64,000 nucleotides of DNA from Nanohaloarchaea archaeon SW_7_43_1 (GTDB lineage: Archaea > Nanohalarchaeota > Nanosalinia > Nanosalinales > Nanosalinaceae). A model generated the notes under the pieces. The model made no database searches, was not told the DNA's origin, and saw only the letters and a list, made by a program, of their open reading frames with translations. The DNA is taken from NCBI GenBank assembly GCA_003009795.1, contig PXPE01000001.1, positions 248,001 to 312,000 on the forward strand, read 5' to 3'. This document shows, in pieces, positions 51,249 to 61,985 of this stretch. The translations under genes and the position numbers were made by a program. The first letter of the stretch is position 1. Each line of letters starts with the position of its first letter.

Positions 51249-52001
51249 TCACTCTTTTTGGTTCTCTAGGTATTCTTTGAGGGTTTTCCTGTCTTTGTTG
51301 TCTTTTTCTGCTTCGATAAGTGCGTCGAAGTCAGGATTCTCTATTTCTTTGATCTCGTCCTTTGAGTCGCTGATTGTTCCTGATACAACTTCATTATAAT
51401 CAACTTCTGCAGTTGTTTCTTCGTCCTCGTCAGCTTCCTCCTCTTCTTCCTGCTCTTCCACTGCTTCCTCTATCTTTTCTTCAGTTTCTTCGTCTTCAAA
51501 CTGTTCGTGTGCTCCTGATTCTCCGGACTGCATCTGCTGCATCATTTCCTGTTCCTCGTCTTCTTCAAGTGCTTCTTCCAGTTCTTCTTCGTCTACCTGG
51601 ATTGATTCATAGTCGTCGACCTCGAACTTCTCCAGTCTGTTAGAATCTTCTACGTTCAGTGCTACTATCTGAAGATTGGAGGGTCTGAGCGCTTTCTGCT
51701 GAAGTGAGCCATCGTTCCTTTCATTATCGATTCCGTCAATGTAGACTACTGTGTTTTCTCTATCGATATTATTGATTATACCTTCTGCGCCTGATTCATC
51801 TCCTCTCATCACTTTCGCTCTGTCGCCGGTTCTTACCTTTACTGTCCGGGTTCCAAGTTCATTTCTGAGTTCCTGTGAAGCGTTGGCTGAAACCAGTTTA
51901 TCCTTTACGTGTAGAGGTGCATTATCTCTGTATTTCCTCTGTTTGGAGGGGTTCTTGCTTGATTTCCATTCTTTGCTCCAGTTCTCTGTTTTCTGTGTCA
52001 T
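51249..52001 (-). CDS. rpl24: Ribosomal protein uL24 with long acidic tail and C-terminal module
   Basis: The first 120 residues are a normal archaeal uL24 (SKNPSKQRKYRDNAPLHVKDKLVSANASQELRNELG, KOW motif RTGDRAKVMRGDESGAEGIINNID). The protein then continues to 250 residues, twice the usual length: residues 128-198 are almost only Glu, Asp and Gln, and residues 201-250 form a compact module DYNEVVSGTISDSKDEIKEI ... NKDRKTLKEYLENQ. The same 50-residue module ends uS3 in this genome (28 of 50 identical, no gaps). No counterpart in uL24 is known to me. The frame is continuous, without a shift, and followed 8 bases later by eS4. Confidence 0.93.
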   Translation of the reverse strand: MTQKTENWSKEWKSSKNPSKQRKYRDNAPLHVKDKLVSANASQELRNELGTRTVKVRTGDRAKVMRGDESGAEGIINNIDRENTVVYIDGIDNERNDGSLQQKALRPSNLQIVALNVEDSNRLEKFEVDDYESIQVDEEELEEALEEDEEQEMMQQMQSGESGAHEQFEDEETEEKIEEAVEEQEEEEEADEDEETTAEVDYNEVVSGTISDSKDEIKEIENPDFDALIEAEKDNKDRKTLKEYLENQKE

Positions 52002-52011
52002 TATTTTTTCC

Positions 52012-52410
52012 TCAGACTACCTGTGATGCGATTTTCCCGATTGGAGTGTATCTTTCAACTACTTCTTTTGCAATCGGTCCTCTTGTTACGGATCCTTTTG
52101 GAAGCCCCGTCTCCTCTACGAGTACTGCTGCGTTGTCTTCGAACTTGACCCTGAGTCCGTTTGGTCTCTGGAACTCTTTTCTCTGTCTCACAACAACTGC
52201 CTCGAAGACCTGATTTTTGACTTCTTGGTCTCCTTTTAGAATTTTGACCATGACAACATCGCCGATTCCTGCTGAGTCTCTTCTACTTCTTCTTCCCTGT
52301 CGTGTTTTGACTCCGATTATCTCCAGTTTCTTAGCTCCCGAGTTGTCTGCGCATGTAAGTTCTGCTCCGATGTCCAGGGTTTTTGTGATATTGGATCCGA
52401 TCGGTTTCAT
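52012..52410 (-). CDS. rpl14: Ribosomal protein uL14
   Basis: A 132-residue large-subunit protein at the subunit interface. GAELTCADNSGAKKLEIIGVKTRQGRRSRRDSAGIGDVVMVKILKGDQEVKNQVFEAVVVRQRKEFQRPNGLRVKFEDNAAVLV is almost a textbook archaeal uL14. It follows uS17 with a 58-base gap. Confidence 0.95.
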   Translation of the reverse strand: MKPIGSNITKTLDIGAELTCADNSGAKKLEIIGVKTRQGRRSRRDSAGIGDVVMVKILKGDQEVKNQVFEAVVVRQRKEFQRPNGLRVKFEDNAAVLVEETGLPKGSVTRGPIAKEVVERYTPIGKIASQVV

Positions 52411-52468
52411 TTCAGAACCTGCCTCGCATGTTACTAGTGGAAAATCTTTGTTTTTCGGTCATTCGGGA

Positions 52469-52756
52469 TCACTCTTCAATTATTTCGGTTATGACTGTGC
52501 TTTTGGTTTTTGAGATAGGCTTTGTCTCTTCAATTCTTACCTCATCGCCTTCTTCTACTTCAAGGTCTTCAGGTACGTGTGAAGTGATCTTGGTGTTGCG
52601 TCTTTCGTATCTCTCATATTTTGGAACTTTCTGGCTGTGTTCCCATCTTACTGTTGCTGATTTCTCCATCTTTGTAGATTCTACTGTTCCTGTGAAGGAG
52701 CTCCCTCTAGTAGGAAACTCTATGCTCGTTGATTTTTGTGCTTCTTGCTGTGCCAA
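52469..52756 (-). CDS. rps17: Ribosomal protein uS17
   Basis: A 95-residue small-subunit protein (OB fold): GSSFTGTVESTKMEKSATVRWEHSQKVPKYERYERRNTKITSHVPEDLEVEEGDEVRIEETKPISKTKS. The start codon is TTG, identified by a GGTGA ribosome-binding site 8 bases upstream. In many archaea the RNase P protein Rpp29 gene lies just before uS17; here that position is taken by a structured non-coding stretch and the VapBC-type block. It has its own TATA box and starts the spc-type part of the ribosomal cluster. Confidence 0.94.
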   Translation of the reverse strand: MAQQEAQKSTSIEFPTRGSSFTGTVESTKMEKSATVRWEHSQKVPKYERYERRNTKITSHVPEDLEVEEGDEVRIEETKPISKTKSTVITEIIEE

Positions 52757-52794
52757 GACTTGTTCACCTATGGATGATCAAAGTGGATGTAATT

Positions 52795-52802
52795 CTTTTA
52801 AA
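52795..52802 (-). promoter_or_regulatory. TATA box for the uS17-uL15 operon
   Basis: On the minus strand TTTAAAAG; at -31 it predicts transcription from about 52771, 15 bases before the TTG and just ahead of the GGTGA ribosome-binding site. It lets the spc part be transcribed independently of the upper cluster. Confidence 0.55.
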
Positions 52803-52804
52803 CC

Positions 52805-52942
52805 AAGTGACTCTAGACGTAGACCTGAGAAGCGCTACTCGATGAAAAGCGGGTTTTCCCGGCCGCCCAGAGTATCGATCAAATCATGGATCCCTTACAA
52901 AAGGATCAAATGATCTACCCGACTCCAAACGAGTCGAACTAA
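52805..52942 (-). ncRNA. Candidate structured non-coding RNA upstream of uS17
   Basis: The interval between vapC and uS17 has no coding frame but is unusually G/C-rich and full of hairpins on the minus strand: CGACTC-GTTTG-GAGTCG (52920-52936), GATCC-TTTTGTAAG-GGATC (52889-52907), CGGG-AAAA-CCCG (52850-52861), a near-palindrome GAGTAGCGCTTCTC (52827-52840), and a possible closing helix GTAGA/TCTAC (52914-52918 with 52819-52823). A TATA box (TTTTTAAA, about 52966-52973) would start transcription near 52942, and the next TATA box, for uS17, begins where the structure ends. It shows no RNase P, SRP or C/D-box signature. Confidence 0.35.
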
Positions 52943-53002
52943 GTAACTCAAAATAGAATACAAGTTTTAAAAAGGAGTTTGGGTTTCTACAGCTTTTTTG
53001 TT

Positions 53003-53476
53003 TCAGGATACTACTTCTAGTTCTGGGAAGTATTCTCTGTGGAATCCGGTATCCAGACTAGCGAGTTGGTCGGCCTGTTGGATGGCGTGGCTGCCTATCA
53101 AAAAGTCGGGGTTAACGTGTTGTCTTCGGCTCAGGTTTGTTTCGCATTTCCGGCATTTTAGTTGGTTTTCTGTCCCGCATCTGGGGCACTGGAGTTTTTC
53201 TCCTCTGTTTTCCAGGTATTCTGAAAATTTCTTTCCAGCCAGTTGGGAAGCATCCTTACTCAGGGCTTCGAATCGGATTCCTGTGTCTTCGAGAAAGCTG
53301 TCCAGTTTCTGTTTGGAATCGAAGTAAACTGCCAGCTCGCTGTATACCACGGTATTTATGAATAGGCCTCCTTCTTGATTCAACTTTCCAAGAAGTTTTA
53401 CCGCCCGTTGATTATTGGGATCATCCTTGTTCAAGAGTGATATCAGTATGTTGGTGTCAACTACGGTCTTGGTCAC
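53003..53476 (-). CDS. VapC-type PIN-domain RNase toxin with zinc-ribbon insert
   Basis: A 157-residue PIN-domain protein. Acidic catalytic residues are Asp7 (VVDTNILISLL), Glu47 (VVYSELAV), Asp124 (VNPDFLIGSHA) and Asp142 (LDTGFHREYFPEL). Between the third helix and the VNPDFLIGSHA motif lies a zinc ribbon, CPRC at 97-100 and CRKC at 108-111, in a loop that is short in ordinary VapC. Its 5' end overlaps the AbrB-type antitoxin gene by 20 bases, so the two form a toxin-antitoxin operon. Such toxins cut tRNA or mRNA. The insert might set substrate or antitoxin specificity. Confidence 0.8.
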   Translation of the reverse strand: MTKTVVDTNILISLLNKDDPNNQRAVKLLGKLNQEGGLFINTVVYSELAVYFDSKQKLDSFLEDTGIRFEALSKDASQLAGKKFSEYLENRGEKLQCPRCGTENQLKCRKCETNLSRRQHVNPDFLIGSHAIQQADQLASLDTGFHREYFPELEVVS

Positions 53477-53684
53477 CGCGTAGCTCCTCCATTATCTCCT
53501 CTGTTTTCTTCCCGGTCTTTAGTACGCCTTCCCATCTCTTGAATGGATTCTCTTCTGTGTTTTTTCGGATCTTTATTTCTCCATCTTCGATATTAAATTT
53601 CAGGTCATCGCCAGGGCTTATACCGGTTTTTTCTCTTACCTTCTTTGGAATTGTTACTTGTCCTTTCTCTGTTACAGTAGTCAT
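53457..53684 (-). CDS. AbrB/MazE-fold antitoxin
   Basis: A 75-residue protein with the SpoVT/AbrB swapped-hairpin domain in its first half (TTVTEKGQVTIPKKVREKTGISPGDDLKFNI) and a helical C-terminus (KTEEIMEELRGDQDRS) that would wrap around the toxin. It precedes vapC with a 20-base overlap, the usual antitoxin-first order. A palindrome sits on its promoter, consistent with autorepression. Confidence 0.85.
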   Translation of the reverse strand: MTTVTEKGQVTIPKKVREKTGISPGDDLKFNIEDGEIKIRKNTEENPFKRWEGVLKTGKKTEEIMEELRGDQDRS

Positions 53685-53685
53685 A

Positions 53686-53713
53686 AGTATTAACTTTCAG
53701 TAATACTTAAAAA
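53686..53713 (-). promoter_or_regulatory. Promoter and palindromic operator of the toxin-antitoxin operon
   Basis: A TATA box CTTAAAAA (plus-strand reading, 53706-53713) lies 29 bases from the antitoxin ATG, giving a leaderless mRNA. Between them AGTATTA (53686-53692) and TAATACT (53701-53707) form a perfect 7-base inverted repeat with an 8-base spacer. A dimer bound there would cover the initiation region, the expected position for autorepression by the AbrB-type antitoxin. Confidence 0.6.
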
Positions 53714-53808
53714 TCTTACTAGAAGTAAATAGGTCTTTCATTGATTGGGCTATTTTCTTTTCAAACTCTCGAGTTAGATTTTCTCCATTCCTTATTCCAT
53801 ACTGCCGA

Positions 53809-55092
53809 TTATTCTTTTAGATCCGATATTTTGGCTGCTGCGAATGGTACTAGCATTTCTGCTTTGCTCATTCCTCCGTGATGGCCGTGGTAATCTTCGT
53901 ATGTCTTGTAGTCCTCATAGTTATACCATACCATTTTCTCTTCTTTTCTAGGAATCACTACTATGTCTCCAAGCCTTGATCGGTTATTTACTTCTCCTTT
54001 TCCGAATAGATCTAACTCTACAGCTTCTTCTGTTTTTAGGACCTCTGCGTTCAGTTTTTGATCAAGGAATTCTTTGACTCTATCCTCTTTCCCCGATTTG
54101 ATATGTAGGATTGCTGTTCTTGGCCCGCCGGTAGGTAGGATTATCTCTCCTTTTTGATCTCTTTCTAGGTTTTTCTCCACGGTTTCGAAGCTGAGAAGAT
54201 CTTCAATATTGTCTGGATCCACATCTGCTTGGCCGTGATCTGCTATAATTATCAAAAGAGTGTCTTCTGCTACAGAGTCGCTTGTTTTTTCAACAAGTTG
54301 TTTCTGAAGTGCCTGTGAGACTGCCTCTAACTGAGAAATATGTTCTTCAGAATCAGGCCCTAATTCGTGTAGTGCTTTATCGACTTGATCCGTATAGCAG
54401 TGGAGATATTCTCTATTATCCGAGCTTTCGAGACTTTTTCTCAGTTTTAAAGCCATATCGAATGTATTGTTGAACCCTTTAACAGCAGATTCCTTCATCA
54501 TCTTGGAGTTATAATCACTTCCTATGACCGCATCAGGCACTATGGCGGTAGAGTCAACTCCTCCAGAGCTCAAACGTTCAAATACTGTTTCGCCATCATA
54601 AAGCACTGATATATCTGTATCTCCCATTATTTCTCTTGGATCTTCTCTATCAAGTGTTGTAAAAGGCAAGGTTCTGATAGTTGTATCTAGTCCCTCCAGG
54701 AAAACCCTCCACGACACGATGGAGTGTTCTTGAGGGGTTAATCCCGTGTTCATACTTGTAACCGCTGCAGCTGTTTCCGATGGAAAAACTGCGGTTAGAG
54801 GAGTAACTTTTCCGTTCTCAATTAAGTTACTGAAGAACTCTAGATCTTGACCATACTTTTTCCACTGAACATAGCCGAACGCATCAACGAAAACAAGAGC
54901 TACATTCTGTACATCGCCAGTATCAATTCCCTCAAATACCGTCTCCGGAAGATCTCTTTCGGATTTGACATCTAACAGTTCCTCAATAGTTCCAGGTATG
55001 TTAGCAAAGTTATATTTGTTATAATGTGGAGTTACAAGCCCCTCGAGTTTTGATTCATCTAGAATTTTTTCTTCAATATCTTCATCCAGCAT
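53809..55092 (-). CDS. Alkaline-phosphatase-superfamily hydrolase
   Basis: A 427-residue soluble metalloenzyme of the phosphodiesterase/nucleotide pyrophosphatase branch. The first metal Asp is Asp70 in VALVFVDAFGY, the nucleophile is probably Thr107 or Ser105 in FPSETAAAVTSMNTGLTPQEH, a second metal pair lies in IIIADHGQADVD, and the last His in DYHGHHGGMSKAEM. No signal peptide, so it acts in the cytosol. The SETAAAVTSMNTG pattern is that of archaeal AP-superfamily proteins annotated as type I phosphodiesterase; substrate unknown. Confidence 0.85.
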   Translation of the reverse strand: MLDEDIEEKILDESKLEGLVTPHYNKYNFANIPGTIEELLDVKSERDLPETVFEGIDTGDVQNVALVFVDAFGYVQWKKYGQDLEFFSNLIENGKVTPLTAVFPSETAAAVTSMNTGLTPQEHSIVSWRVFLEGLDTTIRTLPFTTLDREDPREIMGDTDISVLYDGETVFERLSSGGVDSTAIVPDAVIGSDYNSKMMKESAVKGFNNTFDMALKLRKSLESSDNREYLHCYTDQVDKALHELGPDSEEHISQLEAVSQALQKQLVEKTSDSVAEDTLLIIIADHGQADVDPDNIEDLLSFETVEKNLERDQKGEIILPTGGPRTAILHIKSGKEDRVKEFLDQKLNAEVLKTEEAVELDLFGKGEVNNRSRLGDIVVIPRKEEKMVWYNYEDYKTYEDYHGHHGGMSKAEMLVPFAAAKISDLKE

Positions 55093-55095
55093 AGA

Positions 55096-55259
55096 TTAGA
55101 ATTCATCCTCAATTTTTTCTAGCTGTTGCTTAAGTTCCGTTTTGATACTATTTTGTTCTCTGTCTGCGGTTATATATATCATCAGAGTAACGTACGGCAG
55201 GAAATAGAGGTTTATTCTTTTCTCCCATCCATTTTTTATGAGTTCCCTATTTCTTTCAT
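55096..55259 (-). pseudogene. Frameshifted small membrane-protein gene (about 54 residues)
   Basis: An ATG near a GAGG sequence opens MKE and then leaves the coding frame; the neighbouring frame continues RELIKNGWEKRINLYFLPYVTLMIYITADREQNSIKTELKQQLEKIEDEF up to a stop four bases before the phosphatase ATG. Adding one A to the AAAGAAAT run near the start would restore one continuous protein with one hydrophobic helix and a coiled-coil end. Either the gene is decaying, the base is a sequencing error, or the frame shifts during translation. Close spacing to both neighbours favours a former real gene. Confidence 0.35.
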
Positions 55260-55276
55260 CCTAGTTAATCCTCTAA

Positions 55277-56014
55277 TTATTTCTTTGCCAACACTATTAA
55301 TCTGTCTGCTTCATCGTCAAAGTCTTCTCCTTCGACATTTCCGTAGAAATCTACTTCAGAGAATCCGACCTGTTTCAGCATTTGTTCTAGTTCGGAGGCG
55401 GCGTAAAGTCGTTGTTCCCAGGTGTATTCGGCGGTTTCCCCATTTTCGACTTTGATCCAGGTATTCTCGACCTTTTTCCAGTTGTTTTTGGGCCTTGCTT
55501 TTTCCATGTTATAAATTCCGTCTTGTTCGCTCCAGTGATGGCTTAGGTCTCGCATAGCTGCAATCTCTTTCCCGTAGTAGTCCATAACTAGAACTCCTCT
55601 GTCTTTTAAGGAAGTGTGAATGTTTTCCAGCATCTGCCTGTCGTCTTCTCTGTCTTCAAAGTAGCCGAAACTGTTCCACCAGTTGATAACTACATCAAAA
55701 CTGTTTTCTCTCCCGAAATCCTTCATGTCTTCCCGGATGAACTCTATGTTGCCTGACTCGTCTTCCGCTTTTGCGTCTTCGATATAGTCTGTGGTTTTGT
55801 CTACGCCCACTACTTCAAATCCTTTCTTCTGAAGTTCTATGCTGTGTCTTCCTACTCCACAGGGCATATCCAAGACTTTCATTCCTGCTTCTAAATCAGC
55901 TAAATCAATTATCTTCTCGATCTCCTCTTTGGAAGATTCAAGTTTCTCTTCAGCGAATAGCAGATTTTTGAACTCCATCCAGAACTCTTCGTCAGTAAGT
56001 GTTTCGTCGGCCAT
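55277..56014 (-). CDS. Class I SAM-dependent methyltransferase
   Basis: A 245-residue Rossmann-fold methyltransferase. Motif I is VLDMPCGVG (47-55), the acidic end of strand 2 is in VVGVDKTTDYIEDA, motif II region is FIREDMKDFG and FDVVINWWNSFGYF, then a beta-sheet-rich C-terminus. A substrate cannot be assigned: the fold covers small molecules as well as proteins. It lies 6 bases downstream of the S66 peptidase gene and is probably co-transcribed with it and the GNAT genes. Confidence 0.85.
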   Translation of the reverse strand: MADETLTDEEFWMEFKNLLFAEEKLESSKEEIEKIIDLADLEAGMKVLDMPCGVGRHSIELQKKGFEVVGVDKTTDYIEDAKAEDESGNIEFIREDMKDFGRENSFDVVINWWNSFGYFEDREDDRQMLENIHTSLKDRGVLVMDYYGKEIAAMRDLSHHWSEQDGIYNMEKARPKNNWKKVENTWIKVENGETAEYTWEQRLYAASELEQMLKQVGFSEVDFYGNVEGEDFDDEADRLIVLAKK

Positions 56015-56020
56015 CGAAGA

Positions 56021-57085
56021 TCAACTCAGTTTAATTTCCTTGTTTTTCGCATCTATTCTGATCTCTCCACCTATAGGCAGAGGGATTTTTGGGTGTGTAT
56101 GTCCGAAGTCTACATCGAATACTACAGGTGTACTCGGACAGTATCGCTGAACTTCGTCCTTAATTGTTTGTTTCTGTTCTTTGTGGTATTCTTGTTTTTC
56201 CTCTAGGTTTTTGTCTTCTCCTAATAGTGGACTTCTCATAGGTCTACCAACCAGAATTGCGGAGAATATCTGTAATATACCTCTTTCGCCCATACATAGC
56301 AGGTTTCTTTTCACTTCTAATGCGTCTGGGTTTTCTTCTGATGTTTCTAAAGCCAGTATCTTACCTTCTAAGTCTTCCATTTCTGGCAGGTATTTTTCCA
56401 CCGCCATCTGTTCTGGAATTATAGTAAGACAGCCTCCCCAGAGCCTTCCTTCAACTGTTTCCTCATTAAAGTTCCAGAACTCCCAGCCAGGGTTGTCATA
56501 TCTTTCACGGTCATCCTTGATTTCATCCTGAAACAAATTGAAGTAATCATCTGTGAACTGTTCTGAAGGCTGGACTATGCCTAAACTGTCTTCGAAGAAT
56601 GCCTTTTCCAGATGTTCACAGGTGTATTCGCCGATTTCTCCTTCAGCCAGTAAGTCATCGAGTATCTGACCACCGTAGAACGTCTGGATACCCAAGTTCC
56701 AGAGATAGATATGTAGGTTAGTGTTATCGCTTATACCGTAGAATCGAGTTGGGTTTTGTTTTAGTCTTTCTTGCTCTAAGTGTTTCAGCATCCTGATTTG
56801 TTCCGAACCTCCTGTCAATGCGATCACTCCTTTGATTTCGGGGTCTTCAAATGCCGCCATGAACTCCTCTGCCTTTTCTTCATGATGATTATCCAGGTAT
56901 TCTGTATCTTTTCTAGCAGTATCGTATACTACAGGTTCTAAACCGAATCTGTTTTCCAGTCTTTCAACTCCTTTATTCAATACTTTTGGAAAATCCTGAA
57001 CACCACTCGAAGTCGCAACAATAGCCACTTTATCGCCTTTCTCAAGTGCTGGCGGCAACACAAATTCTTTACCCATAGCATTCAT
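56021..57085 (-). CDS. S66-family peptidase (LD-carboxypeptidase/MccF-like)
   Basis: A 354-residue serine peptidase of family S66. LEKGDKVAIVATSSG opens the N-domain, Ser119 is in YGISDNTNLH (the GxSD nucleophile), EGRLWGGCLTII and ALETSE carry the catalytic Glu region, and the His is in DFGHTHPKIPLPIGG. Archaea lack murein, so cell-wall recycling is unlikely; the MccF subgroup instead cleaves aminoacyl-nucleotide or other peptide-linked toxins, and a protective role is an inference. It overlaps the upstream GNAT gene by up to 17 bases, or by 8 if the ATG three codons later is used. Confidence 0.85.
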   Translation of the reverse strand: MNAMGKEFVLPPALEKGDKVAIVATSSGVQDFPKVLNKGVERLENRFGLEPVVYDTARKDTEYLDNHHEEKAEEFMAAFEDPEIKGVIALTGGSEQIRMLKHLEQERLKQNPTRFYGISDNTNLHIYLWNLGIQTFYGGQILDDLLAEGEIGEYTCEHLEKAFFEDSLGIVQPSEQFTDDYFNLFQDEIKDDRERYDNPGWEFWNFNEETVEGRLWGGCLTIIPEQMAVEKYLPEMEDLEGKILALETSEENPDALEVKRNLLCMGERGILQIFSAILVGRPMRSPLLGEDKNLEEKQEYHKEQKQTIKDEVQRYCPSTPVVFDVDFGHTHPKIPLPIGGEIRIDAKNKEIKLS

Positions 57086-57608
57086 CCTCTAAAATACTCA
57101 TCCAAGTGACATTTATCCATTCCCCGTCTACACACTTGTAGTCTCTTTCTACTCCTTCTTCCTGAAAACCTGCTTTCTCCATTACTCGGCGTGAGGCAGG
57201 GTTTCCTTCCAAGTATCCGCCTCTAATCTTGTGGCGGTTCAAGGTTTCAAAGGCATAGGTTACGACCATTTTCAGGCTTCTTGTTCCGATCCCTCGACCG
57301 TGATAATCCGGATGAATGAAGTATCCTACATGGCTTTTACCATAATCGCTTTCGAGTCCGTCAAGAAATATATGACCGACTCTTTCCCCCTGATGTTCTA
57401 TGAGGAAATGAACGCTATTATCATCTGAATTGAATTCTCCGATGATTTCTTCCTGTTGCGATACGTTAGTCGGTCTTGGTTCTCTCCCAAGGTATGATCT
57501 TACTTCTTCGTGGCTAATTGTTTCGGTGATAAATTCGGCGTCACTCTTCTCTACTGGTCGGAGTACTACATCATCCCGTTCCATAAATTTGTTCTCAGTT
57601 TCCGTCAT
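57069..57608 (-). CDS. GNAT acetyltransferase, RimJ/RimL type (copy 2)
   Basis: A 179-residue GNAT protein. VLRPVEKSDAEFI opens the fold, the acetyl-CoA loop is HGRGIGT in IHPDYHGRGIGTRSLKMVV, and the last motif is NPASRRVMEKAGFQEEGVERDYKCVDGEW. Such enzymes acetylate protein N-termini, ribosomal proteins or small amines. It is a tandem paralogue of the next gene upstream, starting within its stop codon (ATGA). Placement within a ribosomal cluster could hint at ribosomal-protein acetylation but is not proof. Confidence 0.85.
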   Translation of the reverse strand: MTETENKFMERDDVVLRPVEKSDAEFITETISHEEVRSYLGREPRPTNVSQQEEIIGEFNSDDNSVHFLIEHQGERVGHIFLDGLESDYGKSHVGYFIHPDYHGRGIGTRSLKMVVTYAFETLNRHKIRGGYLEGNPASRRVMEKAGFQEEGVERDYKCVDGEWINVTWMSILEDECYG

Positions 57609-58135
57609 TCCCAGTCACCTTCTAAAATGCCGTAGTATACGATGTCTTTGTATTCTCCCTGTGTGAATGTATGGTCTTTGAATACCCCTTCCTTTTCGAA
57701 TCCAAGTTTCTTCCAGAGGCTGATTGAGGCTTGGTTGTCGGTGTGTGCTCGTGCATAAATTTTATGATAGTTGAGTTGTTTGAATCCGTATTCTGTGATT
57801 AGTCGTGCTGATTCTGTTCCGTATCCGTTTCCGTGATGTTCTGGGTGTAGCCAGATACCGATTTCCGCCATTTTCTCTGCATTACTGCCTTTCGGTATCA
57901 AACTGATGATACCTTTTCGTTCATTATTTTTGGTTATTAGCAGGTGAACTTTGTCTTCGTCGCAGATTTGCTCCTCGAAGAACTCCTGTTCATTCTCAAG
58001 GTTTTGAGGTCTTCTGTTACCCATATGAACACGGACATCAGGATGATTAACTCCATTCCTCAAAAACTCTATGTCTTCCTCCTCTACAGTTCTAAGGTTT
58101 ATTTTGTCTCCTTCCAGAAATACTGTTCCGGACAT
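57605..58135 (-). CDS. GNAT acetyltransferase, RimJ/RimL type (copy 1)
   Basis: A 176-residue GNAT protein with INLRTVEEEDIEFLRNGVNHPDV, the acetyl-CoA loop HGNGYGT in LHPEHHGNGYGTESARLI, and NQASISLWKKLGFEKEGVFKDHTFTQGEY. It shares the general layout of its downstream paralogue (about a third identical by eye), and overlaps it by four bases. Divergently arranged with the APH-fold kinase gene, with only 38 bases between the starts. Confidence 0.85.
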   Translation of the reverse strand: MSGTVFLEGDKINLRTVEEEDIEFLRNGVNHPDVRVHMGNRRPQNLENEQEFFEEQICDEDKVHLLITKNNERKGIISLIPKGSNAEKMAEIGIWLHPEHHGNGYGTESARLITEYGFKQLNYHKIYARAHTDNQASISLWKKLGFEKEGVFKDHTFTQGEYKDIVYYGILEGDWE

Positions 58136-58173
58136 ACCAATTAGTTAAACACGGATTGTTCTAAAACATAGGT

Positions 58174-59175
58174 ATGAAGCAAGTACCTGAGAAAGATATT
58201 ACAGAAGCAGTCAAGCAATTTGACTATAAAAACCAGATAAATGAGAAAGAAGACATCTCAGGTCATAACAATAGAATTTTCAAAGTCAAATTAGAGGACA
58301 AAACGGTTATCTGTAAGTCCTGCGTAGGTACTAAACCTAAGCAGGACTGCCGGAAAGAAGTCGGTATGAATCAACTTCTGAAAAGACGGACCAGCGTCAA
58401 GACCCCTGAGTTGCTTTACAGCAATCCATCCACAGACAAAACAGAATATCCGTTCTTCATAACCGAATACATCGATGGGAAAAGCCTACAGGACAGTTTT
58501 CCAGAACTTAATGCGGAAAATCAGGTTGAAATAGTGGAACAGGCAGGGCAGATTCTCGGAGAGGTACACTCCGAGATCAGTTTTCAACACGCAGGTGAAC
58601 TGAAACCAGAAAACGAAGGTATCAAAGTTGATAGGGAATCCAACTGGATAGAATACATAGTAGAAGAATTAAACCAAGCAATAGAGAAGGCAGAAGATAC
58701 AAGGTTCAAAGATTTAACGGGCAAAGCAGATAATGTAGTAGCTAAACTTTCCCAGCTTGAAGAACCTGAGAAAACACTGGTATTTTACGACTTCCGACCA
58801 GATAACGTGATTACTGAAGATGGCAAGATTAAAGCTTTGATTGATTTTGAGAGGGCTTGGTCGGGAGACCCGCTTTGGGACTACGCTTACAGCGAAATGA
58901 GCTTTGTTGAACCATATCATTACTTCACGATGCATAAACCGCGGAAGGCAGGCGATGCGGAGCTTCGAGAAGTCTTTCAGAAAGGCTACGAACAGGAAGA
59001 ACAGTTGGGAACTGGCTGGCGTAGAAAAGTCAAGCTCTACAAGCTAGGAATAATTATTAAGGGATTTATCACTTTCAAGGGTTTTACGGAGGGTATGGAA
59101 ATGTCCGAGGAAGAAATAAATCGGCAGGAAAAACTATTAAGAACTGCCTTTGGCAGGCTTTTTGAGAGTGTCTAG
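58174..59175 (+). CDS. APH/choline-kinase-fold phosphotransferase
   Basis: A 333-residue small-molecule kinase of the aminoglycoside phosphotransferase fold. The N-lobe carries ISGHNNRIFKVKLEDKTVICKS, the hinge TEYIDGKSLQD, the catalytic loop FYDFRPDNVI (Asp and Asn present; the usual His two residues before the Asp is Phe), and the metal motif ALIDFERAWSGDPLWDYAY. Family members act on aminoglycosides, homoserine, choline, fructosamine or methylthioribose; this substrate is unknown. It is the only plus-strand gene between 38.3 kb and the end and overlaps the aIF1 stop by four bases. Confidence 0.8.
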   Translation: MKQVPEKDITEAVKQFDYKNQINEKEDISGHNNRIFKVKLEDKTVICKSCVGTKPKQDCRKEVGMNQLLKRRTSVKTPELLYSNPSTDKTEYPFFITEYIDGKSLQDSFPELNAENQVEIVEQAGQILGEVHSEISFQHAGELKPENEGIKVDRESNWIEYIVEELNQAIEKAEDTRFKDLTGKADNVVAKLSQLEEPEKTLVFYDFRPDNVITEDGKIKALIDFERAWSGDPLWDYAYSEMSFVEPYHYFTMHKPRKAGDAELREVFQKGYEQEEQLGTGWRRKVKLYKLGIIIKGFITFKGFTEGMEMSEEEINRQEKLLRTAFGRLFESV

Positions 59176-59480
59176 TTCTGGACTTCTATCTGGTTTCGTG
59201 AGAAGCCTTCTTCTTCCAGAACATCTGTGATTCGGTGGGTGTGGTCGCCTTGGAGCTGGATCTGTCCATTCTTGGCTGTTCCACCGCATGCCAGTTTTGT
59301 CTTCAGCGTGGAGCTGAGTTCGCTGAGATCCACATCGTCGGATAGACCTTCGATGACGGTCATCTCTTTTCCAAAGCTTCTGGTATCGATTTTAACAGTT
59401 ATCTTTTGTTCGTCCCGCGCTATGTCGTCGCATACGCACAGGTCTTCAGGCATTCCGCATTTAGAACAATTTTCAGACAT
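59172..59480 (-). CDS. Translation initiation factor aIF1 (SUI1)
   Basis: A 102-residue SUI1-domain protein that monitors start-codon choice on the small subunit. An N-terminal zinc knuckle (CSKCGMPEDLCVC) is followed by VKIDTRSFGKEMTVIEGL and LKTKLACGGTAKNGQIQLQGDHTHRI, the SUI1 signature. In archaeal ribosomal clusters the SUI1 gene commonly follows uL29, as here with a 12-base gap. Confidence 0.93.
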   Translation of the reverse strand: MSENCSKCGMPEDLCVCDDIARDEQKITVKIDTRSFGKEMTVIEGLSDDVDLSELSSTLKTKLACGGTAKNGQIQLQGDHTHRITDVLEEEGFSRNQIEVQN

Positions 59481-59492
59481 TTTAGTATACTT

Positions 59493-59687
59493 TTAATCCT
59501 CGTTTTGAATAGTTTTGATACGTGCAATGGTTTTCTTGATTTCGCCTATTCTTCCAGGGTTGTCTGCGAATCCACCGGTTTCGATCTGTCCTCTCTCCTC
59601 TACGATTTCTTTCTTGAGATCTGCGAGTTTCTCATCGAGTTCTCTTTCGTTCATGTTTCTTATCTCGTCTGCTTTTAGGATAGCCAT
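59493..59687 (-). CDS. rpl29: Ribosomal protein uL29
   Basis: A 64-residue two-helix large-subunit protein: ILKADEIRNMNERELDEKLADLKKEIVEERGQIETGGFADNPGRIGEIKKTIARIKT. Length and sequence are typical. It lies 26 bases after uS3. Confidence 0.94.
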   Translation of the reverse strand: MAILKADEIRNMNERELDEKLADLKKEIVEERGQIETGGFADNPGRIGEIKKTIARIKTIQNED

Positions 59688-59713
59688 TTTTTGATCACCT
59701 TTTCTTCGAGTTC

Positions 59714-60808
59714 TTATTCTTTCTTACTTTCAAGCCATTGCTTGAAGGTTTTCCTGTCTTTGTTGTCTTTCTCTGTCTCAAGTGCTGCTTCGTAGTCCGG
59801 ATCGTCAAGATTATCTAATGCATCCTTTGCGTCGCCAATAGTTCCTGAGACGATATCCTCGTAGTCTGTTTCGTCCTCGGAATCTTCTGTGGCTGATTCA
59901 TCTTGTTCCTCAGTTTCTTCTGTATCCGGTTCCGGTGTCTCTTCGTCTGCATCGGGTTCTTCTTCGGATGTTTCTTCAGGTTCGTTTTCTTCTACTTCTT
60001 CAGTCTCGTCTTCTGACTCTATTTCCGCTACATCCCCGCTTTCGAACACATCTCTTACTTCTTCCTTGGAGACATCAGCTGGCTGTACCTCTTCAAGTTC
60101 TTCGACCGCTCTCTCGATTTCGGATGCGGTCATGTTATCCGCTTCATCTATGATCCTTGCGATGATCTGCGGTTTCTCTGCCTCATCTGGTGCTTCAACT
60201 GTTTCATGGATCAGTTCTTTCTCCACATCCACGTCTCTGTGCATGAAATCTGGGATTTCCTTCATCAGTCGGACTTTTACACCGATTGCTCCCGGTTTGG
60301 TTCTCGCCAGTTTGTATCCTGTATCAACGTTTTCCTGTGATGTGTTCCCACATCTCTTAACATATCCGAACGAGAATTTCTCTGTTCTTCCTCTGTTTCC
60401 TGATAGTTTTCCTGATACCTCGATTTCAGCTCCTAGTACTCCTGATTCTTTTACTCTTCTCAAGTATGTGTATCCTACTCTTTTTGCCTGTCCGCCTTTT
60501 TCCAGCCAGTCTGCCATTGACTGTGCTACGATCTGTGCGTCGGCGTCAGGGTTTTCTATTTCGTTTACCTCGATCTGAGGATTCTCGAAATCAAATACTC
60601 TTTCTGTTTTCTTCGTAAGTTCTTTGATTCTGCTTCCGCCTCTTCCGATTACAAGTCCCGGTTTCTGTGCGTGGATAACTATCTTGGTCGAGGTCGGTGT
60701 TCTCACGATGTCCGCGTGTGAGTATCCTGCGCCTTCAAGTTCGTCCTGAAGGTATTCGTGCAGTTTTACTTTTCTTGCACCTTTTTCGATAAACTCTTTT
60801 TTCTGCAC
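59714..60808 (-). CDS. rps3: Ribosomal protein uS3 with long acidic tail and C-terminal module
   Basis: Residues 1-205 are a normal archaeal uS3: KH domain (KPGLVIGRGGSRIKELTKKTE) and C-domain (SGKLSGNRGRTEKFSFGYVKRCG, PGAIGVKVRLM). A segment of about 50 residues (EAEKPQIIARIIDEADNMTASE...SKEEVRDVFESGDV) follows, then an acidic stretch (265-314), then residues 315-364, DYEDIVSGTIGDAKDALDNL ... NKDRKTFKQWLESKKE. This last 50-residue unit matches the end of uL24 without gaps (28 identical). At 364 residues uS3 is over 100 longer than usual. Normal downstream spacing to uL29 shows it is not a frame artefact. Confidence 0.93.
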   Translation of the reverse strand: MQKKEFIEKGARKVKLHEYLQDELEGAGYSHADIVRTPTSTKIVIHAQKPGLVIGRGGSRIKELTKKTERVFDFENPQIEVNEIENPDADAQIVAQSMADWLEKGGQAKRVGYTYLRRVKESGVLGAEIEVSGKLSGNRGRTEKFSFGYVKRCGNTSQENVDTGYKLARTKPGAIGVKVRLMKEIPDFMHRDVDVEKELIHETVEAPDEAEKPQIIARIIDEADNMTASEIERAVEELEEVQPADVSKEEVRDVFESGDVAEIESEDETEEVEENEPEETSEEEPDADEETPEPDTEETEEQDESATEDSEDETDYEDIVSGTIGDAKDALDNLDDPDYEAALETEKDNKDRKTFKQWLESKKE

Positions 60809-61296: not shown

Positions 61297-61677
61297 CTAT
61301 TTGAGCGGTACGTGCTGGGAAGATCTTGTAGCTCCCAGTCCTGGTGCGCTGTGTGATACTTCTTTCCGGGTTTTGGAGAACTCGCCTAGGTAGTGTCCGA
61401 GCATTTCTTCGTCGATCTCTACTTCCATGAATCTCTGTCCGTTATATACTTCTACAGTGTTTCCAACCATTTTCGGTACCACGATCATGTCTCTTTCATG
61501 TGTCCTTATTCGGTCTTTCTCTTCAAGGTCTTTGAGGATTTTCTTTTCGTTGTCTCTTAGTCCTCTCTGAATTTTTCTTCTTCCTCTTGCATCAAGCAGT
61601 TCTGAAAACTGGTTTAGGTTCATCTGCTTGAGTTCATCCATTGTTTTTCCTCTGAATGTGAATTCTTCATCTGACAT
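61297..61677 (-). CDS. rps19: Ribosomal protein uS19
   Basis: A 126-residue head protein of the small subunit: FTFRGKTMDELKQMNLNQFSELLDARGRRKIQRGL, TVEVYNGQRFMEVEIDEEMLGHYLGEFSKTRKEVSHSAPGLGATRSS. A frame 19 codons longer exists but overlaps the upstream gene and lacks family similarity; the chosen ATG overlaps that gene's stop (TAATG), so the two are translationally coupled. Confidence 0.94.
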   Translation of the reverse strand: MSDEEFTFRGKTMDELKQMNLNQFSELLDARGRRKIQRGLRDNEKKILKDLEEKDRIRTHERDMIVVPKMVGNTVEVYNGQRFMEVEIDEEMLGHYLGEFSKTRKEVSHSAPGLGATRSSQHVPLK

Positions 61678-61985
61678 TATAGTTTCACCTCGAATGGGTG
61701 ATCTGTGGTTGCTGCTATCATTGCATCTTCCCATGGTATTCCTTCGTCTTTTTCCTCTATTACAGATTCGTTATAGCTGATTAGATCATCAACTTTTTGG
61801 TATATGTCCGTAAGTGTGTCTTCTTCTAGAGTTTCTTTCTCTTTCCCTATTTCGTTTATGATATAATCTGTTGTGTTTTCCAGAACTGCTCTTCTCTTCC
61901 TTTGATATTCCTGACTTTCTGAGTCTATCTTTCCCAAAATATCATAGAAATCCTCATTTGCTGCTTCTAGTTTTATTTCGTTCAT
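61677..61985 (-). CDS. Unknown protein inserted between uL2 and uS19
   Basis: A 102-residue acidic, almost wholly helical protein (NEDFYDILGKIDSESQEYQRKRRAVLENTTDYIINEIGKEKETLEEDT...IYQKVDDLISYNESVIEEKDEGIPWEDAMIAATTDHPFEVKL). No Cys, no known motif. It sits 11 bases after uL2 and its TAA overlaps the uS19 ATG, so it is embedded in the ribosomal operon and coupled to uS19. In archaea uL2 and uS19 are normally direct neighbours. It may be a lineage-specific ribosomal protein or an assembly factor; that is inference. Confidence 0.7.
   Translation of the reverse strand: MNEIKLEAANEDFYDILGKIDSESQEYQRKRRAVLENTTDYIINEIGKEKETLEEDTLTDIYQKVDDLISYNESVIEEKDEGIPWEDAMIAATTDHPFEVKL

Follow-up and report, generated by a model that had tools for sequence, protein, structure and literature searches.

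The ribosomal protein cluster of Nanohaloarchaea archaeon SW_7_43_1 raises the question of why two proteins of different ribosomal subunits, uL24 and uS3, should end in the same module of 50 residues. We analyzed a stretch of 64,000 nucleotides (hereafter the window; contig PXPE01000001.1, positions 248,001 to 312,000) in which both genes sit in this cluster on the minus strand. Their parts, in window coordinates, are as follows.

51249..52001, minus strand: uL24 (rpl24) gene, 250 amino acids, with C-terminal module (TIGR01080, E=2.4e-29, residues 15-125; Pfam Ribosomal_L26, E=4.2e-17)
51402..51626, minus strand: Glu/Asp-rich linker of uL24, residues 126-200 (from the translation)
51252..51401, minus strand: module copy 1, uL24 residues 201-250 (profile match, E=1.8e-35, contig coordinates 299252-299425)
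59714..60808, minus strand: uS3 (rps3) gene, 364 amino acids, with C-terminal module (NF003219, E=2.2e-69, residues 2-205)
59867..60193, minus strand: Glu/Asp-rich extension and linker of uS3, residues 206-314 (from the translation)
59717..59866, minus strand: module copy 2, uS3 residues 315-364 (profile match, E=4.9e-35; four-helix fold predicted by AlphaFold2)

An ungapped alignment of uL24 residues 201-250 with uS3 residues 315-364 gives 28 identities in 50 positions, and both segments are the ends of their proteins, which reproduces what the original prediction had reported. The BLOSUM62 score of the pair (170) lies about 20 standard deviations (SD) above that of 20,000 shuffles (mean 7, SD 8, maximum 54), ruling out chance similarity. 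At the DNA level, the two modules with their stop codons share 104 of 153 nucleotides (~70%), whereas the 60 nucleotides on either side agree at 24 of 60 positions each (40%), and the match is therefore limited to the module. The long flexible linkers that were described are also real, but they do not replace the normal C-termini, as had been supposed. The family models span residues 15-125 of uL24 (a near-complete match) and 2-205 of uS3, and the conserved cores are normal; linker and module have thus been added onto conserved proteins rather than substituted for their ends. No third copy turned up when the window was scanned for the motif.

What kind of module is this? From 140 aligned modules, AlphaFold2 predicts a confident four-helix fold for the isolated unit, with helices at positions 2-7, 10-18, 25-34 and 39-49 and a mean predicted local distance difference test score (pLDDT) of 93.4. 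Conservation is complete at E32 and R38 and exceeds 90% at K14 and T40, and position 44 is aromatic in 99% of sequences; a KxR(K)T segment is conserved ahead of the last helix, and the module ends in a helix with an aromatic-L/I-E pattern. On the strength of this model we are confident in regarding the module as an independently folding domain of ~45 residues. Between two genomes of this genus the ratio of nonsynonymous to synonymous substitution rates (dN/dS) is 0.074 for the module, 0.105 for the rest of the carriers and 0.152 for the linker. These values indicate strong purifying selection on a constrained domain that is carried on a looser linker. The module matches no Pfam or NCBIfam family (including a comparison of the 140 members with Pfam-A), has no relative in the PDB by sequence or, using Foldseek at E<1, by fold, and no description of such a shared domain was found in the open-access literature. 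It is an undescribed domain.

The small helical fold with KxR(K)T before its last helix, and the presence of ribosomal proteins and RNA polymerase (RNAP) among the carriers described below, might suggest a nucleic-acid-binding domain of the helix-extended-helix type (SAP/HeH/LEM-like), with which both ribosomes and RNAP would keep hold of RNA or DNA. We consider this very improbable, given that C-terminal modules have a mean net charge of -6, that SAP, HeH, LEM and Rho_N are absent from the 25 Pfam-A families listed for the 140 modules, and that the predicted four-helix model has no PDB fold match at E<1, although small domains score poorly in fold comparisons. The E2 peripheral subunit-binding domain (PF02817) does not match the module either; in carrier L147, the true E3-binding domain lies separately at 167-202 and the module at 66-110.

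The module is not confined to uL24 and uS3, as was first thought. With a profile built from these two modules, five copies are detected in the genome of 956,550 bases. The other three are at the C-terminus of eS24, at the C-terminus of uL10, and at the N-terminus, judged cytoplasmic, of a membrane protein that has 200 residues and crosses the membrane once. Nor is it a peculiarity of one genome: the module is conserved in close relatives and is 96% identical in the closest named one, Nanohaloarchaea archaeon SW_4_43_9. The profile search finds 1 to 11 copies in each of 27 of 28 Nanohaloarchaeota genomes analyzed, and the 28th has a divergent module at the end of uS3 (domain E 1.9e-4). Many of the genomes are incomplete, and the lack of a single carrier is therefore a soft absence except in closed genomes; the genomes were read in stretches.

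Which proteins carry the module? Clustering the 137 carrier proteins with the module masked yields more than 20 carrier families in the phylum. Ribosomal proteins are prominent, and RNAP subunit A'' and unrelated proteins, many of them membrane-anchored, carry it too. Among the 27 genomes it occurs on uS3 in 21, eS24 in 20, uL24 in 16, eL31 in 10, RNAP A'' in 6 and uL10 in 2, while membrane carriers of an N-terminal type are found in 22 and of a C-terminal type in 11. A winged-helix coiled-coil family also carries it, and single or paired carriers include a bacterial-PH/zinc-ribbon membrane protein, a chemotaxis receptor, a KaiC-type ATPase, a DsbA-like thioredoxin and a lipoyl acyltransferase. 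In other words, the module does appear in unrelated proteins, as a widespread domain would, but it is not a known domain. Most copies are terminal (102 of 144 at the C-terminus, 24 at the N-terminus), and the 40 residues preceding C-terminal modules are 42% Asp/Glu. At nine loci there are also proteins of ~500 residues with two divergent N-terminal modules, long acidic coils and a conserved C-terminal domain, one of them with a VWA-like gene nearby. This two-module protein, a candidate hub that is common in the family, was not found in the genome of the window.

Outside the Nanohaloarchaeota the module is sporadic, occurring in 9 of ~366 sampled archaea. A closer look at three other phyla found it in 4 of 29, 11 of 156 and 2 of 19 genomes. 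There too it is found on proteins of translation and transcription, identified from their translated sequences: uS3, eS24 and eL31 (f9); eL32, RNAP A'' and uS3 (f17); uS4 and eS6 (f107); eL32, eL31 and uS3 (f151); and uS3 (f39, f81, f152). A common cause in salt adaptation is ruled out by the Lys-rich linkers of several of these carriers, and these relatives also rule out the halophile-specific factor suggested at the outset. Two further features were seen in these translations: a tyrosine recombinase-like protein has an N-terminal module (L248, 1486-2925), and at five loci eL31 and uS3 of other archaeal lineages have C2H2-like zinc fingers between core and module, a further case of a domain added to ribosomal proteins.

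How did such unlike genes come to share one domain? The suggestion that recombination spreads the module between genes has held up, as copying is visible in the DNA. In genome G015 the eS24 and uS3 modules share 134 of 150 nucleotides and use the same codon for 39 of 41 identical residues, and similarity drops at both module ends into unrelated flanks that are about half identical. In G487, from another phylum, the modules of eL31 and eS24 show no difference over at least 102 bases (102/102). Identity between copies that so far exceeds that of the flanks is as expected of a coding unit that recombination has spread. In the genome of the window, codon-usage resampling gives P=2e-4 for an identical run of 29 nucleotides between eS24 and uS3 and P=4e-4 for one of 34 nucleotides between eS24 and uL24; uS3 and uL24 share a 24-base run (P=0.007) but show no codon excess (P=0.46). 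When the two members of the genus are compared, synonymous divergence (dS) is 0.57 for the uS3 module (59717-59866) against 0.18 for the uS3 core, a threefold difference that is expected if one of the two modules was overwritten from another copy.

No mobility machinery of its own and no shared non-coding termini were found in the two genomes inspected closely, and similarity stops near the module ends, which points to gene conversion and not transposition. In a tree of 118 modules, to be read with the caution that 50 columns call for, ribosomal carriers of the main family are intermixed and membrane carriers stand mostly apart. However, ribosomal paralogues within a genome are no more alike in protein sequence (0.52) than paralogues across the family (0.52), so continuous concerted evolution is not general and conversion must be episodic. 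The simplest account is episodic gene conversion among module-bearing genes, together with occasional addition of the module at the charged tail ends of new genes. In G487, contigs break off inside the identical eL31 and eS24 modules, and such identical modules may be one route by which ribosomal protein genes are lost from metagenome assemblies.

DNA-level copying, a set of carriers that changes between lineages and the great diversity of those carriers (chemotaxis receptor, KaiC-type ATPase, lipoyl acyltransferase, tyrosine recombinase) are also what one would see of a neutral or selfish coding repeat, spreading by recombination among exposed charged tails and tolerated there without function. 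We judge this improbable. The dN/dS of the module is as low as that of the rest of its carriers, two invariant residues and a confident fold persist over 140 sequences, and the same ribosomal carriers reappear in separate phyla. Ribosomal and RNAP proteins are moreover over-represented among the distinct carrier families (P~0.007, or 8e-5 with other phyla included), on a rough count of those families and a guessed background of 7%.

What might the module then be for? We propose, and give about an even chance, that it serves as a docking handle on a flexible tether, bound by one shared partner, with gene conversion both spreading the copies and keeping them uniform. A linker that is long, charged and flexible joins the module to the termini of peripheral proteins in both ribosomal subunits; in some lineages RNAP subunit A'' and membrane proteins, on their cytoplasmic face, carry it as well. 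Several modules per ribosome would reach outward and be bound by the common partner, either a soluble hub or other modules, and this binding would gather ribosomes together and, where such carriers exist, with RNAP or membrane proteins. New copies would be joined to existing linkers, and gene conversion would keep the copies alike, letting all carriers track one partner. We infer docking, recognition by a single partner and clustering from the terminal position, the flexible linker, purifying selection, the several copies per ribosome and homogenization between otherwise unlike carriers. In a broader version, archaeal ribosomes with several docking domains on both subunits, RNAP and membrane proteins would all be recognized by one partner, or would recognize each other, and would be physically clustered in ultrasmall cells, with their domains kept interchangeable through gene conversion. 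This is a tentative and rather doubtful extension.

Several observations weigh against a docking handle. No partner has emerged from the analysis. Carriers come and go: uS3 ends as a bare acidic linker in two genomes, the uL10 module is found in one genus only, and since individual carriers are gained and lost, no single one is essential. Gene conversion can equally spread a neutral add-on. A natural tandem pair of modules, taken from a uS3, is predicted as two good domains without sign of packing against one another (predicted template modeling score 0.57). It lends no support to homotypic packing, although this modeled result would neither support nor exclude self-association between separate molecules. 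Statistically, the co-occurrence of ribosomal and membrane copies counts for little, both being close to fixation within a single phylum, and G031, a 94% complete genome from outside it, has ribosomal copies with no membrane copy found.

That co-occurrence bears most directly on the idea that ribosome-borne modules bind membrane-borne modules, or a common adaptor, and so keep ribosomes (and RNAP) at the cell membrane, where proteins would be inserted or secreted as they are translated. All 26 Nanohaloarchaeota genomes with a ribosomal or RNAP copy also hold a membrane-anchored copy. The module side of the membrane carriers is judged cytoplasmic, one carrier of the same layout having a DsbA-like thioredoxin domain across its single helix, and uL24 and eL31 lie near the nascent-chain exit. 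However, uS3, eS24 and RNAP A'' do not face the exit, ribosomal and membrane modules fall into separate tree groups, and the points on other phyla and on the tandem pair made above count here as well. We therefore regard a membrane tether as an unlikely general explanation, while ribosome-membrane or RNAP tethering within the Nanohaloarchaeota is a plausible sub-hypothesis only. The same terminal, flexible and repeated placement, which suits ribosome, RNAP and membrane carriers alike, could serve a quality-control handle recognized by a protease, chaperone or modification enzyme that monitors the assembly of large complexes. No recognizer was found, however, and a well-folded domain of 45 residues exceeds the usual size of a degron; it is the least probable of the explanations considered here.

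A docking handle would have partial parallels elsewhere. In the P-stalk, archaeal and eukaryotic uL10 and aL12 (P0/P1/P2) share a C-terminal unit on acidic linkers that recruits common factors. The likeness lies in a common C-terminal unit, flexible acidic linkers and more than one ribosomal protein, but the P-stalk tail is a short unfolded hydrophobic peptide on a single stalk, whereas the module is a folded domain found on both subunits, RNAP and membrane proteins. P-stalk-type C-terminal motifs (GLGxLF, MGFGLFD) were not found in the modules; the GLG-LF motif occurs in aL12 only, which in this phylum keeps its normal GLG(D/S/N/E)(L/M)F tail and lacks the module. In uL10 (L222-L232) the usual archaeal GLG-LF tail is missing across the phylum, and an acidic stretch stands at the C-terminus. 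Since that stretch is bare where uL10 has no module, the idea that the module substitutes for a GTPase-recruiting uL10 tail is ruled out.

Haloarchaeal eL32 has an N-terminal helix-hairpin-helix extension, likewise a lineage-specific folded domain linked to an archaeal ribosomal protein, and eL32 is itself a module carrier. We take this as a lead only; the extension has a single carrier and its hairpin glycine motifs are absent from the module. Expressome bridges, formed by NusG and NusA extensions (PMC8116511), resemble the proposed system in being flexible extensions that join RNAP to ribosomal proteins. They are dedicated factors, whereas here the ribosomal proteins themselves and, in some lineages only, RNAP A'' bear the module.

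Two phage families of unknown function, PHROG 29632 and PHROG 1983, give weak partial matches to 53 and 27 of the 140 modules (best E 8.8e-5 and 3.5e-4); those inspected span helices 2-4. Foldseek against viral models gives template modeling scores of ~0.7 to several small phage proteins with E-values that are not significant, tblastn gives no convincing match and a search with a phage motif found no phage match. We treat the phage relationship as a lead, homology not being established. No viral carriers were found in IMG/VR with two pattern sets, and the module is absent from the half of the Halorubrum virus HSTV-2 genome that was examined. A stand-alone 50-residue module open reading frame (WP_004061043.1; L185, 2998-3150) lies near an Hsp20 gene on Haloferax mediterranei plasmid pHME505, the sole match in haloarchaeal hosts in a search that left haloarchaeal chromosomes outside.

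Between the uL24 and uS3 genes, ~6 kb of non-ribosomal genes (53003-59480) break the usual uS3-uL29-uS17-uL14 order. By eye, their translations comprise a PIN-domain/AbrB-type pair, a phosphatase-like protein, a methyltransferase, an LD-carboxypeptidase-like protein, two GNAT acetyltransferases and a phosphotransferase. An open reading frame of 102 residues (61677-61985) also lies between uL2 and uS19, overlapping the longest uS19 reading frame.

Few proteins are considered as conserved, or as little modular, as those of the ribosome. Here one undescribed domain has been appended to at least eight different ribosomal proteins (uS3, uS4, eS6, eS24, uL10, uL24, eL31 and eL32), and to RNAP, in several archaeal lineages. 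Its identical copies disrupt metagenome assemblies at ribosomal protein genes. The DNA-level homogenization looks as if all copies must fit one partner. If this is true, the module would represent a new layer of ribosome organization, and possibly a form of transcription-translation or membrane coupling in archaea.

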